Source: Magnetospirillum gryphiswaldense MSR-1 v2
Lineage (GTDB): Bacteria > Pseudomonadota > Alphaproteobacteria > Rhodospirillales > Magnetospirillaceae
DNA length: 64,000 nt
Direction of reading: 5' to 3'
Assembly (NCBI RefSeq): GCF_000513295.1
Contig: NC_023065.1
Coordinates: 124,001-188,000 of the forward strand
This document shows, in pieces, positions 54,638-60,522 of the stretch. A model generated the notes under the pieces. The model saw only the letters and a program-made list of their open reading frames with translations. It made no database searches and had not been told where the DNA came from. The translations under genes and the position numbers were made by a program. Within the stretch, counting starts at the first letter, position 1, and every line of letters starts with the position of its first letter.

Positions 54638-57532
54638 ATGCGAGACCCCGTCACTTCTTGCGATTCCCAGCTTGGCCGGGCCGAGGTCAAGACCACCACC
54701 TGCTACATGTGCGCCTGCCGCTGCGGCATTCGCGTGCACTTACGCGATGGTGAAGTGCGCTATATCGAGGGCAACCCCGAACATCCCCTGAACCACGGCG
54801 TGATCTGCGCCAAGGGCGCGTCGGGGATCATGAAGCAATATTCCCCCGCCCGCCTGACCAAGCCGTTGAAGCGCAAGCAAGGAGCCGAGCGCGGTTCCAA
54901 CCAGTTCGAGCCGATCGAGTGGGAAGAGGCGCTGTCCATGCTGGGCGACCGGTTGGACCACATCAGGAAGACCGACCCCAAGCAACTGGCCCTGTTCACC
55001 GGGCGCGACCAGATGCAGGCCTTGACCGGCATGTTCGCCAAGCAGTTCGGCACCCCCAATTATGCCGCCCATGGTGGTTTCTGCTCGGTCAACATGGCCG
55101 CCGGCATGATCTACACCATCGGCGGCTCGTTCTGGGAATTCGGCGGGCCTGATCTGGAGCGGGCCAAGCTGTTCGTGATGATCGGCACCGCCGAGGATCA
55201 CCATTCCAATCCCATGAAGATCGAGCTGGCCAAGTTCAAGCGCGGCGGCGGGCGGTTCATCGCCATCAACCCGGTGCGCACCGGCTATGCCGCCATCGCC
55301 GATGAATGGATCCCCATCCGTACCGGCACCGATGGTGCCCTGCTGCTGGCGCTGATCCGCGAGATCATCGAAACCGGCCTGTTCGACCGCGAGTTCCTGA
55401 TGCAATATTCCAATTCCGCTGAATTGGTCATCCAGGACATCAAGCGCGACGATCACGGCCTGTTCGCCCGTGACCCCAATGTCGGCGTGCGCCCCGACAC
55501 CTTCGATACCCCCGACCGCTTCTGGTGGGACAAAGCCACCGACCAGCCGGTGCTGTCGCGCAGCAAGGGCACCGAGGGCCGGTTGATGGGCGAATACACC
55601 CTGCCCGACGGCACCCCGGTCAAGCCGGCCTTCCAGTTGCTGAAGGAGCGGGTCAAGGATTACACGCCGGAATGGGCCGAGGGCATCACCGGTATCCCCG
55701 CCGACACCATCCGCCGCCTCGCCCATGAGATGGGCATCACCGCGCGCGACCAGAAGATCGAATTGCCCATCGCCTGGACTGATTCGTGGGGCAACGAACA
55801 CCAGACGGTGACCGGCAATCCGGTCGCCTTCCATTCCATGCGCGGTCTGGCCGCCCATTCCAACGGCTTCCACACCATCCGCGCCCTGGCCATTCTGATG
55901 AGCCTGTTGGGTACCATCGACCGTCCCGGCGGCTTCAGGCACCGCGCCCCGTTCCCGCGTCCGATCCCGCCGTGTCCGAAGCCGCCCAAGGGGCCGCACG
56001 CGGTCAAGCCGTCGACGCCCTTGGACGGCATGCCGCTGGGCTGGCCCGCCGATCCCGATGATCTGTCGGTGGACGAGAACGGCGCCCCCATGCGTCTGGA
56101 CAAGGGCTTTTCCTGGGAATACCCGCTGTCGGTGCACGGTTTGATGCACAATGTCATCACCAATGCCTGGCGCGGCGACCCTTACCCCATCGACACGCTG
56201 TTCCTGTTCATGGCCAACATGGCGTGGAATTCGTCCATGAACACGTCGGAAGTCAGGAAGATGCTGACCGACAAGCACGAAAACGGCGAATACAAGATCC
56301 CGTTCGTGGTGGTCGGCGACGCCTTCCAGTCGGAAACCGTGGCCTTCGCCGATCTGGTGCTGCCCGATACCACCTATCTGGAACGCCACGACGTCATGTC
56401 CATGCTGGATCGGCCCATCTCGGAATTCGACGGGCCGGTCGATTCGGTGCGCGTGCCGATCATGCCGCCCCTGGGCGATTCGCGCCCGTTCCAGGACGTC
56501 ATCATCGAACTGGCGACGCGGCTTAAGCTGCCCGCCTTCATGACCAAGGAAGGCACGCGCAAGTACCGCGACTATCCCGATTTCATCACCAATTTCGAGA
56601 CCGAGCCGGGCTCGGGCATTGGCTTCCTGGCCGGCTGGCGCGGCAAATCGGGCGAAAAGTCCATGGTCGGCGAGCCCAATCCCAACCAATGGGACATGTA
56701 TGCCCGCAACAACAACCACTACCACCACCATCTGCCCAAAAGCTTCCAGTACATGCGCAACTGGAACAAGGGCTACCTGACCTGGGCCCAGGGCAACCGG
56801 CTGGTGCGCTATCACGACCCCATCAACATCCATATCTATTCGGAAGTGCTGCAAAAATTCCGTCTTGCCGCCCAGGGTAAGTGGAAGGGCAAGCAGCCGC
56901 CGGACGAATTGCGGCCCCGGGTCGAACAGTTCTTCGACCCATTGCCGTTCCATTATGCGCCGCTGGAATGGGCCAAGACCGACACCGCTCGCTATCCGCT
57001 GTCGGCGCTGACCCAGCGGCCCATGGCCATGTACCATTCGTGGGATTCGCAAAACGCCTGGCTGCGGCAAATCCATACCCAGAACTACATCATGGTCCAT
57101 CCCAGCGTCGGTGCTGGCAATGGCTTCGACGATGGTGGCTGGGTGTGGGTGGAAAGCCCGTGGGGCAAGGTGCGGTGCATGGCGCGCTTCACCGAGGCGG
57201 TGGAGCCGGGCACGGTGTGGACCTGGAACGCCATCGGCAAGGCCTCGGGCGCTTGGGGTCTGGACGGCGATGCCAACGAAGCCAAGAACGGTTTCCTGCT
57301 CAACCACCTGATTTCCGAGGAACTGCCCAACATGGTGGGCGGGCGGCATGTCTCCAACTCCGATCCGGTCACCGGGCAGGCGGCGTGGTACGACGTGCGC
57401 GTGCGCATCACCCCGGCTGCCGCCGACGAACCCCAGGAAAGCTGGCCGCAATTCCCCACTTTGGGGCAATTGCCGGGCCAGACCGGCTTTGGCGCCAAGA
57501 TGCGCGCCTTCTTCGCCGGCAAGAAGCGTTGA
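54638..57532 (+). CDS. soeA: molybdopterin oxidoreductase, sulfite-oxidising SoeA type
   Basis: The 964-residue catalytic subunit begins with a [4Fe-4S] motif TCYMCACRCG (C22, C25, C29) and closes with C57 in VICAKG. The rest follows the DMSO reductase/CISM layout with bis-MGD binding, including FTGRDQMQ and MIGTAEDHHSNPMK. There is no Tat signal, so it should stay in the cytoplasm, unlike PsrA/DmsA. That, the size (964/244/322) and the gene order match SoeABC of Allochromatium, which oxidises sulfite to sulfate on the inner face of the membrane. AGGGAG precedes the ATG by eight bases. Other CISM enzymes, such as a polysulfide or tetrathionate reductase, remain possible. Confidence 0.88.
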   Translation: MRDPVTSCDSQLGRAEVKTTTCYMCACRCGIRVHLRDGEVRYIEGNPEHPLNHGVICAKGASGIMKQYSPARLTKPLKRKQGAERGSNQFEPIEWEEALSMLGDRLDHIRKTDPKQLALFTGRDQMQALTGMFAKQFGTPNYAAHGGFCSVNMAAGMIYTIGGSFWEFGGPDLERAKLFVMIGTAEDHHSNPMKIELAKFKRGGGRFIAINPVRTGYAAIADEWIPIRTGTDGALLLALIREIIETGLFDREFLMQYSNSAELVIQDIKRDDHGLFARDPNVGVRPDTFDTPDRFWWDKATDQPVLSRSKGTEGRLMGEYTLPDGTPVKPAFQLLKERVKDYTPEWAEGITGIPADTIRRLAHEMGITARDQKIELPIAWTDSWGNEHQTVTGNPVAFHSMRGLAAHSNGFHTIRALAILMSLLGTIDRPGGFRHRAPFPRPIPPCPKPPKGPHAVKPSTPLDGMPLGWPADPDDLSVDENGAPMRLDKGFSWEYPLSVHGLMHNVITNAWRGDPYPIDTLFLFMANMAWNSSMNTSEVRKMLTDKHENGEYKIPFVVVGDAFQSETVAFADLVLPDTTYLERHDVMSMLDRPISEFDGPVDSVRVPIMPPLGDSRPFQDVIIELATRLKLPAFMTKEGTRKYRDYPDFITNFETEPGSGIGFLAGWRGKSGEKSMVGEPNPNQWDMYARNNNHYHHHLPKSFQYMRNWNKGYLTWAQGNRLVRYHDPINIHIYSEVLQKFRLAAQGKWKGKQPPDELRPRVEQFFDPLPFHYAPLEWAKTDTARYPLSALTQRPMAMYHSWDSQNAWLRQIHTQNYIMVHPSVGAGNGFDDGGWVWVESPWGKVRCMARFTEAVEPGTVWTWNAIGKASGAWGLDGDANEAKNGFLLNHLISEELPNMVGGRHVSNSDPVTGQAAWYDVRVRITPAAADEPQESWPQFPTLGQLPGQTGFGAKMRAFFAGKKR

Positions 57533-57547
57533 TCGGGGGACATGACG

Positions 57548-58282
57548 ATGGCGAATGAAAAACAACTGGCCCTGGTCATCGACTTGAACGTCTGCGTCGG
57601 CTGCCATGCCTGCGTGACCAGTTGCAAGGAATGGAACACCTCGGGCTGGGCCGGTCCCATGCCCGACCAGCAGCCTTACGGCAAGGACCCCGACGGCGTC
57701 TTTTTCAATCGGGTGCAGACCTTCGAATGCGGCACCTTCCCCAATACGGAAACCGTGCACTTCCCCAAATCCTGCCTGCATTGCGAAGACCCGCCCTGCG
57801 TGCCGGTCTGCCCCACCGGCGCGTCCTACAAGCGTGAAAGCGATGGCATCGTCCTGGTCGATTACGACAAGTGCATCGGCTGCAAATATTGTTCGTGGAA
57901 CTGCCCTTATGGCGCCCGCGAATTCGACGAAGTCACCGGGGTGATGAAGAAATGCACCCTGTGCGTCGATCGCATCTATGACCAGACCCTGGAGCCGGAA
58001 CGGCGCAAGCCGGCCTGTGTGCTGGCCTGCCCGGCCAGTGCCCGTATCTTCGGCGACATCAAGGATCCCGAATCCGAGGCGTCGCGGGCCATCCGCGACA
58101 ATGGCGGCTATCAGTTGATGCCGGAAGCCGGCACCAACCCGGCCAACCATTATCTGCCCCGGCGCAAGACCAATGCCCAGGTGCATGACGACCAGTTGCA
58201 GCGCGCCGACAATCCGTTGTCGCGGGAAGCCGAGCCGCCGAAATTCGGCGGCCCGACCATCGACGACGCGTCCCAGTGGTAA
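57548..58282 (+). CDS. soeB: four-cluster iron-sulfur subunit, SoeB type
   Basis: The protein has 244 residues. It holds the ferredoxin-like cysteine groups CVGCHACVTSC (16-26), CLHCEDPPCVPVC, CIGCKYCSWNC and CTLCVDR with a later CVLACP, which give four [4Fe-4S] clusters as in DmsB/NrfC. It carries electrons between SoeA and the membrane subunit. The ATG at 57548 has GGGGGA seven bases upstream; the in-frame ATG at 57542 is too close. The gene starts 15 bp after soeA and precedes soeC by 17 bp, so the three form an operon. Confidence 0.9.
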   Translation: MANEKQLALVIDLNVCVGCHACVTSCKEWNTSGWAGPMPDQQPYGKDPDGVFFNRVQTFECGTFPNTETVHFPKSCLHCEDPPCVPVCPTGASYKRESDGIVLVDYDKCIGCKYCSWNCPYGAREFDEVTGVMKKCTLCVDRIYDQTLEPERRKPACVLACPASARIFGDIKDPESEASRAIRDNGGYQLMPEAGTNPANHYLPRRKTNAQVHDDQLQRADNPLSREAEPPKFGGPTIDDASQW

Positions 58283-58299
58283 GGGAGGGGAGATAAATC

Positions 58300-59268
58300 A
58301 TGCGTCCCGCTTTTTCCGTTCTCTTCCTCACCACCTTGATCGGCGCCGCCCAAGGCCTGCTGATCGCCCTGGTGGTCGGCCAATTGTTCCTGGTGGTCGG
58401 TACCGGCCAACAGACCGTACCGGGGGGCTTTTATGCCCTGGGGGCGTTCATCGCCCTGGTGCTGCTGGCCCTGGGCCTGCTGGCCTCGTTCTTCCATCTG
58501 GCCAATCCGGCCCGGGCCTGGCGTGCCGCCAGCCAATGGCGCACCTCGTGGCTGTCGCGTGAAGTCATCGCCCTGCCGGCGGTAATGGGTATGGCGGTGC
58601 TTTATGGCGGACTGCATTGGCTGGGCCTGGATATGCCGCTGTTGCATTTTGCCAATGGCAAAAGCCTGGACCTGACCATGGCGGTGGGTTTCATCACCAT
58701 CGCCGCCTGTGTGGCTTTGTTCATCTGCACCGGCATGATCTATGCCTGCGTCAAGTTCATCCGCGAATGGGCCAGCGTATGGACGGTGATCAATTACACC
58801 CTGATGGGGCTGGCCTCGGGCTTTACCCTGGCCGCTGCCTATGCCGCCAGTTGGGCATCGGTGCTGACCGGTCTGTTCGCTGTCTTCGCCCTGATCCTGA
58901 CCATCGCCGCCCTGGCCGGGCGCGTCTACAGCCTGTGGCGCAATGCCCGGCTGCGCCCACTGACGACGCTGAAAGGCGCCATCGGCGCGCCGCACCAGCA
59001 CATCCGGCAAGTGTCGCAGGGCTTTGGCGGCGGCTCGTTCAACACCAAGGAGTTCTTCCACGGCGTCAGCCCAGAGAAGGTGCGGGCCCTGGTGTTTTTC
59101 TTCCTCGTCGCCGCTTTCCTTGCCCCCATGGTGCTGTTGGCGCTGGGGGCGGGGGTGATGCTGTGGCTGGCGTTTGTCGTCCAATATGTGGGGCTGCTGG
59201 CCGAGCGCTGGGTGTTCTTCGCCCATGGCAACCACGTGCAGAACCTGTATTACCAGCGTAAGGCGTGA
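58300..59268 (+). CDS. soeC: membrane anchor subunit, DmsC/SoeC type
   Basis: The protein has 322 residues with about eight hydrophobic membrane segments. The first is a long LTTLIGAAQGLLIALVVGQL stretch. LASFFHLANPARAWRA in the loop after TM2-TM3 is a DmsC family signature. It anchors the complex and passes electrons to quinone. GGGAGGGGAG before the ATG is a strong ribosome-binding site. It is the last gene of the operon, which ends in a terminator ten bases later. Compared with NrfD-type anchors, the sequence resembles DmsC more. Confidence 0.9.
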   Translation: MRPAFSVLFLTTLIGAAQGLLIALVVGQLFLVVGTGQQTVPGGFYALGAFIALVLLALGLLASFFHLANPARAWRAASQWRTSWLSREVIALPAVMGMAVLYGGLHWLGLDMPLLHFANGKSLDLTMAVGFITIAACVALFICTGMIYACVKFIREWASVWTVINYTLMGLASGFTLAAAYAASWASVLTGLFAVFALILTIAALAGRVYSLWRNARLRPLTTLKGAIGAPHQHIRQVSQGFGGGSFNTKEFFHGVSPEKVRALVFFFLVAAFLAPMVLLALGAGVMLWLAFVVQYVGLLAERWVFFAHGNHVQNLYYQRKA

Positions 59269-59277
59269 GAAAGCGAA

Positions 59278-59307
59278 AGGCCCGGTGTCACCACCGGGCC
59301 TTTTTAT
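59278..59307 (+). terminator. rho-independent terminator of soeABC
   Basis: AGGCCCGGTG and CACCGGGCCT pair perfectly over 10 bp around a four-base loop, followed by TTTTATT. It may also serve the convergent XRE gene, whose stop lies at its right edge. Confidence 0.9.
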
Positions 59308-59753
59308 TCTTCCTCGCCGTTCAGCTTGGCGGCCAGGGATTTGGTCAGATCATAGACGCTGCGGCGGATGGCCTCGTCGGTGATGCGGTGGTAATTGCGC
59401 ATCATCTCCAGCCCCTCGCGGCTGCTTTCCGGCGCGGAGAAGGCGACGGCGTCCTCGTGCAGGCCGTATTTCCCGGATGACCGGCTCATGTCGTCGAAGA
59501 AAAAGCTGACCGGCACGTCCAGCGCCTCGGAAATATGATAAAGCCGGCTGGCGCTGATGCGGTTGGCGCCGCTTTCGTATTTCTGCACCTGCTGAAAGGT
59601 CAGTCCCACCGATTTGGCCAGCTCGGTCTGGCTCAATCCCATCAACGTGCGGCGCAGGCGCAACCGCGCGCCGACATGGGTATCGATGGGGTCGGGGTCG
59701 CCAGATTCGGTGCGGGCACGATAAATTCTCTTGCTGTTCGTTTCGGTGGCCAT
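59304..59753 (-). CDS. XRE/Cro-CI family transcriptional regulator
   Basis: From ATG 59753 the protein has 149 residues. An HTH_3 domain at about 25-85 contains VGARLRLRRTLMGLSQTELA, LTFQQVQKYESG and RISASRLYHISEALDVPVSFFF. A C-terminal segment of about 60 residues probably mediates dimerisation. This type, with DTHVGARLRLRR at the start, is widespread in alphaproteobacteria. The alternative GTG at 59828 would place the promoter inside the gene and is rejected. The promoter region 59780-59814 holds an inverted repeat that covers both -35 and -10, so autorepression is likely. Targets other than itself are unknown; soeABC is convergent, and a link there cannot be inferred. Confidence 0.9.
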   Translation of the reverse strand: MATETNSKRIYRARTESGDPDPIDTHVGARLRLRRTLMGLSQTELAKSVGLTFQQVQKYESGANRISASRLYHISEALDVPVSFFFDDMSRSSGKYGLHEDAVAFSAPESSREGLEMMRNYHRITDEAIRRSVYDLTKSLAAKLNGEEE

Positions 59754-59779
59754 ATCGAATCGTCGTTGAATGGATGGGG

Positions 59780-59814
59780 TTGCATACAATACCCGCACTG
59801 GTAATTGTATGCAA
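59780..59814 (-). promoter_or_regulatory. promoter embedded in an 11-bp perfect inverted repeat (operator)
   Basis: TTGCATACAAT (59780-59790) and ATTGTATGCAA (59804-59814) are perfect complements with 13 bases between. On the minus strand the same bases supply TTGCAT as -35 and TATTGT as -10 at exactly 17-bp spacing. A dimeric regulator bound there would block RNA polymerase, and the XRE gene just downstream is the obvious candidate. Confidence 0.75.
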
Positions 59815-59829
59815 CAATCCCTCTCCACC

Positions 59830-60522
59830 CTAGTCCTGGTTATGCCAACCGCATTGAATCAGGGCGTCGATCATGTGCGCCGGGACTGGCGCCTGGGCGG
59901 TGATCGGCGATTTTTTCGGGTTGTAGGGCAGGGTGATGGACCGCGCATGCAGGTGCAGATGCGGCGACACCAGATCGGCGGTGCCGCGACCATAGGTAGA
60001 ATCGCCGACGATGGGGCAGCCGATGGCGGCCAGATGCACGCGGATCTGGTGGGTGCGTCCGGTTCGGGGCTTGGCCTCGATCCACGACAGCCGCCCGTTG
60101 CCGCCCAGGACCCGGTATTCGGTCACCGCGTCCTGGCCCTTGTCGTCGACCACCATGCGCCAGCCGTGGCGGCGTTCCAGTTTTTTCAGGCGTTTGTCGA
60201 TGATGCCGCTTTCGGCGGGCGGCTTGCCCACCACCACCGCCCAATAGGTTTTCTGCGCTTCGCTGCCGGCGAAGATTTCGCCCAGGCGGGCCAGGGCCTT
60301 GCGATGGCGCCCCAACACCAGACAGCCCGAGGTGTCGCGGTCCAGCCGGTGAGCCAGTTCCGGGTTGCGCGGCAGGCCGAAGCGCAAGGGTTCCAACAGG
60401 TCCATCAGGTGGTGGCTGCCATCGCGGGCACCGGCATGCACGGCGAGGCCGGCAGGCTTGTCGATAATCAACACCATGGCGTCGCGGTACAGCACCCGCG
60501 CCAGCAATTCGTCCGGGCTCAT
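59830..60522 (-). CDS. RluA/RluD family pseudouridine synthase
   Basis: The 230-residue protein carries the catalytic motif HRLDRDTSGCLVLG with its Asp, KTYWAVVVG, and KPRTGRTHQIRVH near the C-terminus. The N-terminus goes directly into the catalytic fold (VLIIDKPAGLAVH), so there is no S4 domain and it resembles RluA more than RluD/RluC. It converts uridine in ribosomal or transfer RNA to pseudouridine; the target base is not known. The start overlaps the stop of the SPOR gene by 4 bp, which implies coupling. Confidence 0.92.
   Translation of the reverse strand: MSPDELLARVLYRDAMVLIIDKPAGLAVHAGARDGSHHLMDLLEPLRFGLPRNPELAHRLDRDTSGCLVLGRHRKALARLGEIFAGSEAQKTYWAVVVGKPPAESGIIDKRLKKLERRHGWRMVVDDKGQDAVTEYRVLGGNGRLSWIEAKPRTGRTHQIRVHLAAIGCPIVGDSTYGRGTADLVSPHLHLHARSITLPYNPKKSPITAQAPVPAHMIDALIQCGWHNQD

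Follow-up and report, generated by a model that had tools for sequence, protein, structure and literature searches.

The intergenic region between an RluA-type pseudouridine synthase gene and an XRE regulator gene of Magnetospirillum gryphiswaldense contains a perfect inverted repeat, which raises the question of what this repeat does and which protein, if any, acts on it. In the window (the whole stretch of DNA analysed, 64 kb in length), both genes lie on the minus strand, the rluA-type gene (59830-60522) directly upstream of the XRE gene (59304-59753), which encodes a 149-residue protein related to PraR, CdxA and RtrA. A terminator-like hairpin (plus strand, about 59275-59304) that follows the convergent gene (58300-59268, plus strand) abuts the stop codon of the XRE gene. 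The repeat itself (59779-59815, hereafter the box) reads GTTGCATACAAT-N13-ATTGTATGCAAC on the minus strand: the upstream arm (59804-59815), or predicted operator 1, contains the predicted -35 and the core TGCATAC at 59813-59807, while the downstream arm (59779-59790), or predicted operator 2, overlaps the predicted -10 and has the core as GTATGCA at 59787-59781.

By direct reading of the sequence the perfect arms are 12 bp each and the spacer is 13 bp; each arm alone is a near-palindrome, TTGYATRCAA. The first-pass annotation had recognized the repeat and its place, but had given the arms as 11 bp, one outer G/C pair short, and had delimited an interval that begins at the start codon (59753) and ends one base before the outer end of the arm. 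While 64 kb may well contain an 11-bp repeat by chance (shuffle mean 0.975, maximum 3), perfect 12-bp repeats with loops of up to 30 bp occur twice in the window (the box and the hairpin at 59276-59303), compared to a mean of 0.2 and a maximum of 2 in 40 dinucleotide shuffles of the window. It is the intergenic placement of the box, along with its conservation in 13/13 genomes of the genus, that argues for a non-random repeat. The centres of the arms are 25 bp apart, a non-integer number of helical turns that counts against reading the arms as operators; the promoter offers the simplest account of this fixed spacing, because each core overlaps one of the hexamers.

A predicted promoter embedded in the box

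The sequence bears out the earlier proposal of TTGCAT and TATTGT at a gap of 17 bp, and we took hexamers 16-18 bp apart as the criterion for a sigma-70 promoter. On the minus strand the predicted -35 (TTGCAT) lies at 59814-59809, with TTGCA invariant in all 13 orthologs, and the predicted -10 (TATTGT) at 59791-59786, replaced by TAATGT in three of the 13. The predicted transcription start is an A inside operator 2 (59780-59781), 5-6 nt past the -10, which would leave a leader of 27-28 nt; it was placed from the sequence and from the ranges reported for M. gryphiswaldense, i.e. an A 6-9 bp past the -10 and a dominant leader fraction of 25-35 nt (PMC9549626). A promoter scan with an E. coli-type consensus found none (0) and did not list the box, because both hexamers fall under the scan thresholds: counted manually, TTGCAT agrees with TTGACA at 3/6 positions and TATTGT with TATAAT at 4/6, which is weak by that consensus and counts against the proposed promoter. 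The consensus reported for M. gryphiswaldense promoters (-35 cTTGcc, -10 TATaaT; PMC9549626) suits the box better on sequence comparison. An alternative GTG start at 59828, which would place the repeat inside the reading frame, was rejected, since the distance from the box to the ATG shifts out of frame among the orthologs (25 nt in G023, 26 nt in our own genome, G000, and 28 nt in G030) and the flanks are unconserved.

Conservation of the box in the genus

Akin to the gene order, with rluA directly upstream of the XRE ortholog, the 35-bp box is present in all 13 genus genomes, as are its length and the embedded TTGCA[T/C]-N17-TA[T/A]TGT. Pairwise identity among the 13 boxes is complete for TGTATGCA (operator 2), 95% for TTGCATAC (the other arm) and 62% for the spacer, as opposed to only 31% and 37% for the 25-bp flanks. 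The ortholog was the top match in 11 of the 12 other genomes; in G027 it matches only partially (91% identity over residues 1-80), at the end of a contig, and a paralog ranks higher. Without mismatch, the double pattern occurs once each in 8/13 genus genomes, always before the XRE ortholog, and is absent from the 42 further genomes in the family set, while its reversed control gave no match in the genus and one in the family set. With one mismatch the genus gave 22 matches versus six for the controls: 11 were at orthologs, now with G028, G029 and G031 among them, and the remaining 11 were elsewhere, which counts against the reading as twin operators; the boxes of G025 and G026 deviate by more than one mismatch.

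In nine of the 13 genomes the Watson-Crick symmetry of the arms is broken, which favours two copies of a single operator (core TGCATAC) over one inverted repeat as the reading of the arms. The geometry described in the first-pass annotation is retained, whereas its reading as a single inverted repeat gives way to that of two operator copies.

The regulator and its paralogs

The window protein has an HTH domain at about residues 26-85 (Pfam HTH_3, E 3.1e-13), followed by a C-terminal helical part, and no NCBIfam model scored above its cut-off for it. The AlphaFold model (mean pLDDT 79.1, pTM 0.52) is reliable in the HTH part only, and the close matches among solved structures also cover only this part. 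Thirty aligned relatives, taken from the best 80 of 583, are 45-84% identical to the window protein and have a C-terminal motif in common with it. By homology of the HTH and of the C-terminal part, the protein belongs to the PraR/CdxA/RtrA family of XRE regulators. PBC5 and Atu_ph08, named as phage homologs in PMC10688885, are 47% identical over 91% and 41.5% identical over 87% of the protein, respectively. The Caulobacter phages CcrSC and CcrBL9 are also found among the matches listed (15 of 75), and phiCbK is not among these 15 of 75 records.

Our own genome holds eight matches to the window protein including the query, six of them at E 2e-17 or better. One paralog (3211481-3211918) is flanked by lnt-like and metK-like frames, as read by eye, which recalls the neighbourhood of praR, where the SAM synthetase gene (metK) is reported to lie downstream (PMC10790750). 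By contrast, what follows the window XRE gene is a convergent gene and not metK, the neighbour that marks PraR/CdxA orthology proper. The recognition region LTFQQVQKYE is identical in the window protein and in three paralogs of the same genome, and their operator preference is therefore probably common. As to the surroundings, we noted by eye a convergent cluster at 54638-59268 with a molybdopterin oxidoreductase, a 4Fe-4S subunit and an NrfD-type membrane subunit; the membrane-subunit gene also lies near the XRE gene in G031, and within about 0.8-1.2 kb of it in G024, G022 and G023.

The core TGCATAC in family promoters

The enrichment set comprised 79 upstream regions, i.e. those of the best 80 of 583 relatives minus L057, for which there was no upstream sequence. 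TGCATAC/GTATGCA was the most enriched 7-mer by z-score, occurring in 17/79 regions (16/78 excluding the one window ortholog) compared to a shuffle mean of 2.0 and a maximum of 7 in 300 shuffles. These counts are not independent events, as some genomes are near-identical relatives, and that only 17/79 promoters hold the core counts against the operator reading. TTGCAA was not enriched in the same promoters (7 versus a shuffle mean of 7.1).

A longer form, TTGACTTGYATRC, in which a TTGAC -35 runs into the operator, matched 32 times in 31/55 genomes, whereas its reversed control gave no match. Twenty-nine of these 32 matches precede a family gene on the same strand, at 102-157 bp from its matched part; the other three, one each in G048, G053 and G054, do not. 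Within the genus there are twelve of the 29, each before the ortholog of the metK-linked paralog; these orthologs show 90-99% identity, that of G027 being a partial match with 96%. The promoter of this paralog contains the operator within one mismatch in 12/13 genus genomes (nine exact including G027, three with one mismatch) and with two mismatches in G020. In other family promoters the core is present as single copies, without a second arm. Compact dyads GCATAC-N4-GTATGC, in which the core is arranged differently, were seen in promoters other than that of the window ortholog, at the family loci L026, L041 and L104 (exact) and L068 and L111 (partial).

Proposed mechanism and alternative explanations

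The sequence of the box, its promoter-like spacing, its conservation in the genus and the enrichment of its core are the observations from which we propose, as the likely explanation of this locus, that the arms are twin operators for PraR-family repressors, laid over the -35 and the -10 of the gene's own sigma-70 promoter and giving autorepression. The regulator encoded at 59304-59753, which probably acts as a repressor, would find in its own promoter two copies of the operator with the core TGCATAC, in opposite orientations and 25 bp apart, operator 1 over the -35 and operator 2 over the -10 and the predicted start. With enough regulator (the window protein, or paralogs whose recognition helix is the same), dimers would fill both sites, presumably one dimer per arm; with both arms occupied, the -35, the -10 and the start would be covered, RNA polymerase would be excluded and expression would settle at a low set point. 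A signal or an anti-repressor could relieve the repression. Cross-repression of the XRE gene by paralogs is also probable on the sequence evidence. The first-pass annotation had already seen promoter hexamers inside the arms and a geometry of autoregulation, a proposal that now has the backing of conservation in 13/13 genomes and of the core in family promoters. The box is probably an unusually clear and well-conserved example of the ordinary self-control of a regulator.

It is possible, although we do not favour it, that the arms serve chiefly as operators for a paralog, most of all the metK-linked ortholog of praR/cdxA, with the XRE gene as a target in a hierarchy. This explanation overlaps with autorepression by twin operators, and joint control is possible. 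Besides the same operator within one mismatch in the promoter of the praR-type paralog in 12/13 genus genomes and the identical LTFQQVQKYE of the two proteins, it can draw on Rhizobium leguminosarum, where PraR binds at the promoter of RL0149, its paralog, and an RL0149 mutant leaves praR expression unchanged (PMC4149787). However, all eight exact doubled boxes precede the ortholog of the window gene, an observation that argues against a paralog as the main ligand and is still compatible with control by one.

Binding of the box by an unrelated regulator, such as a TetR- or GntR-type dimer across both arms, is improbable. Spaced inverted repeats are typical of many dimeric regulators, which we counted in favour of this explanation, but the core is enriched before XRE-family genes far past the genus, and also as single copies.

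Similarly improbable is that the repeat works as an RNA hairpin in transcripts that read through from rluA, in processing, stability or attenuation. The repeat starts 15 bp past rluA, no terminator-like site is listed in that interval, and the predicted fold is strong (-19.2 kcal/mol, z -5.2). In the alignment, paired cells (93.6% vs 91.6%, reached by 23/500 shuffles), cells changed on both sides (5 vs 1.8, reached by 11/500) and the covariation score (0.120 vs 0.091, reached by 26/500) all lie above most shuffles. Yet the changes on both sides are confined to one pair, the outermost (shuffle mean 0.9), further pair types are no more numerous than in shuffles (6 vs 6.3), and even with G-U pairs allowed 10/156 cells are unpaired, in 7/13 genus genomes. 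No U-run follows the repeat, the same core stands as a single copy in other family promoters, and a protein site present twice in opposite orientation would preserve such symmetry too. A chance repeat with a coincidental promoter can practically be dismissed: although 11-bp repeats arise about once per shuffled 64-kb window, the length fixed in 13/13 genomes between unconserved flanks speaks decisively against it.

Candidate targets of the operator

The first-pass annotation had expected other copies of the arm in the genome to give the regulon, an expectation that finds no support, as a whole-genome search found the exact 11-mer only at the two arms; an arm-based search would fail because there is no further copy. 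The looser TTGYATRCAA occurs at six places in our own genome, where judging by the flanks only the two arms hold the exact 11-mer. Compared to its reversed control this 10-mer is hardly more frequent in our own genome (6 vs 5), a point against the operator reading, and is found 66 vs 33 times over the 13 genus genomes.

The core directs attention to the metK-linked paralog as a candidate target and, as a lead only, to dprA and a tolC-type gene. Just upstream of our own dprA, which is followed by a topA-like frame (by eye), lies TTGCATGCAA at 327882-327891 (L003); upstream of dprA, TTGYATRCAA is exact in 6/13 genus genomes (including G027, L167) and within one mismatch in 8/13. An operator-like site at 862005-862014 (L004) lies between a tolC-type and a gntR-type gene and is exact in 4/13 genus genomes, and a site upstream of the tolC-type gene is found within one mismatch in 8/13. 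Exact operator-like sites also precede phasin-type genes (by eye) in two genus genomes (G021:C119, L142; G030:C87, L170). In G021 (C152:127774-127815, L146) two operator-like sites, spaced by 32 bp, precede a gene whose translated product, read by eye, resembles a LuxR-type regulator with an autoinducer-binding domain. Gene names at these sites were read by eye from translations, except that dprA and comM were named by family models.

Sixteen of the 42 single sites examined lie inside a reading frame; four of these 16 are dprA sites in a frame extension, and the other 12 look like chance. The one-mismatch background, 13 sites in 94,799 bp, came from unoriented locus ends, with some target sites among them; it therefore overstates chance, and no probability for dprA or tolC was based on it. 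As for comM/yifB, we rejected it as a target in our own genome, where there is no site; among the genus genomes, 12/13 of which have the gene, its site is exact in one and within one mismatch in two more.

The operators published for PraR are CAAC-N5-GTTG by SELEX (PMC5527310) and TTGCAA by MEME (PMC4149787), and their difference from the box counts against the proposed twin operators. No exact CAAC-N5-GTTG occurs between 59754 and 59829, which leaves inexact sites possible, and TTGCAA is absent from the box, which reads TTGCATACAA. In Azorhizobium caulinodans, three of the sites tried with two or three substitutions were bound (PMC5527310). The exact SELEX consensus (GCAAC-N5-GTTGC) was found in the promoter of another paralog of our own genome (matched at 784953), as GCAACAAGAGGTTGC at 784827-784841, and these 15 bases are also found before the orthologs in G022, G023, G024, G027 and G031 (L258); the genus may therefore use two operator classes. 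As a genus-wide marker of a regulon, CAAC-N5-GTTG was rejected, because GCAAC-N5-GTTGC was no more frequent than its reversed control (97 vs 117 over the 13 genus genomes, 7 vs 10 in our own).

We advance only as a speculation, and one we hold to be rather doubtful, that the PraR/CdxA paralogs of Magnetospirillum form a single TGCATAC network distinct from the rhizobial CAAC-N5-GTTG, with mutual and self-repression from operators at varied promoter positions and a regulon that would include dprA and a tolC-type export gene. If true, this network would link DNA uptake and surface export, as members of the family in Caulobacter link adhesion with gene transfer agents; were dprA and tolC confirmed as targets, the PraR/CdxA family would be tied to DNA uptake besides surface traits. 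The box itself offers a candidate operator for a large and partly characterised family of alphaproteobacterial regulators, in a magnetotactic host that is probably genetically tractable, and its compact promoter with one operator per hexamer would make autorepression and cross-talk from paralogs separable.

Comparison with known systems

The best solved match of the window HTH domain, by sequence and by fold, is C.BclI. As a group, the restriction-modification controllers (C.BclI, C.AhdI, C.Esp1396I) are associated with restriction-modification genes, and they control their own promoter through paired operators. Unlike the window protein, with its 149 residues and C-terminal part, the matched solved chains have about 65-80 residues. 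No restriction-modification genes were recognized by eye among the reading frames of 54-64 kb (the family-library scans covered the XRE and RluA-type proteins only), and on this count the window protein falls outside the controller class. The Cro/C1-type HTH is also a likeness to the 434 and lambda repressors, which repress via paired operators overlapping promoter elements; the sequence of those operators differs from the box, and no phage neighbours were seen by eye within 54-64 kb.

CdxA, CdxB, RtrA and RtrB of Caulobacter and TgrL of phage phiCbK likewise form a paralog set with overlapping binding sites. When overexpressed, the Caulobacter members and the phage homolog are reported to have 59-99% of their ChIP peaks in common with another member, and family targets include hfiA and gafYZ (PMC10688885). 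Their motif is described as one strong and one weak half-site (PMC10688885); its letters are given in a figure and the comparison of the CdxA/RtrA motif with TGCATAC follows the text description of the half-sites only, so that the TGCATAC motif may already be known. Among the papers listed by our literature search, none joined this motif to the PraR/CdxA family, which is not proof of absence.

PraR of R. leguminosarum and A. caulinodans belongs to the same XRE family, as judged through homologs and from the relation described in PMC10688885. It differs in its operator, published as CAAC-N5-GTTG or TTGCAA, as opposed to TGCATAC here, and in its genomic setting, since praR has the SAM synthetase gene downstream whereas the window XRE gene follows rluA. 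PraR of R. leguminosarum binds at its own and at a paralog's promoter, most probably as a direct repressor of both (PMC4149787), and is, by analogy, a direct precedent for the autorepression and the paralog repression proposed here.
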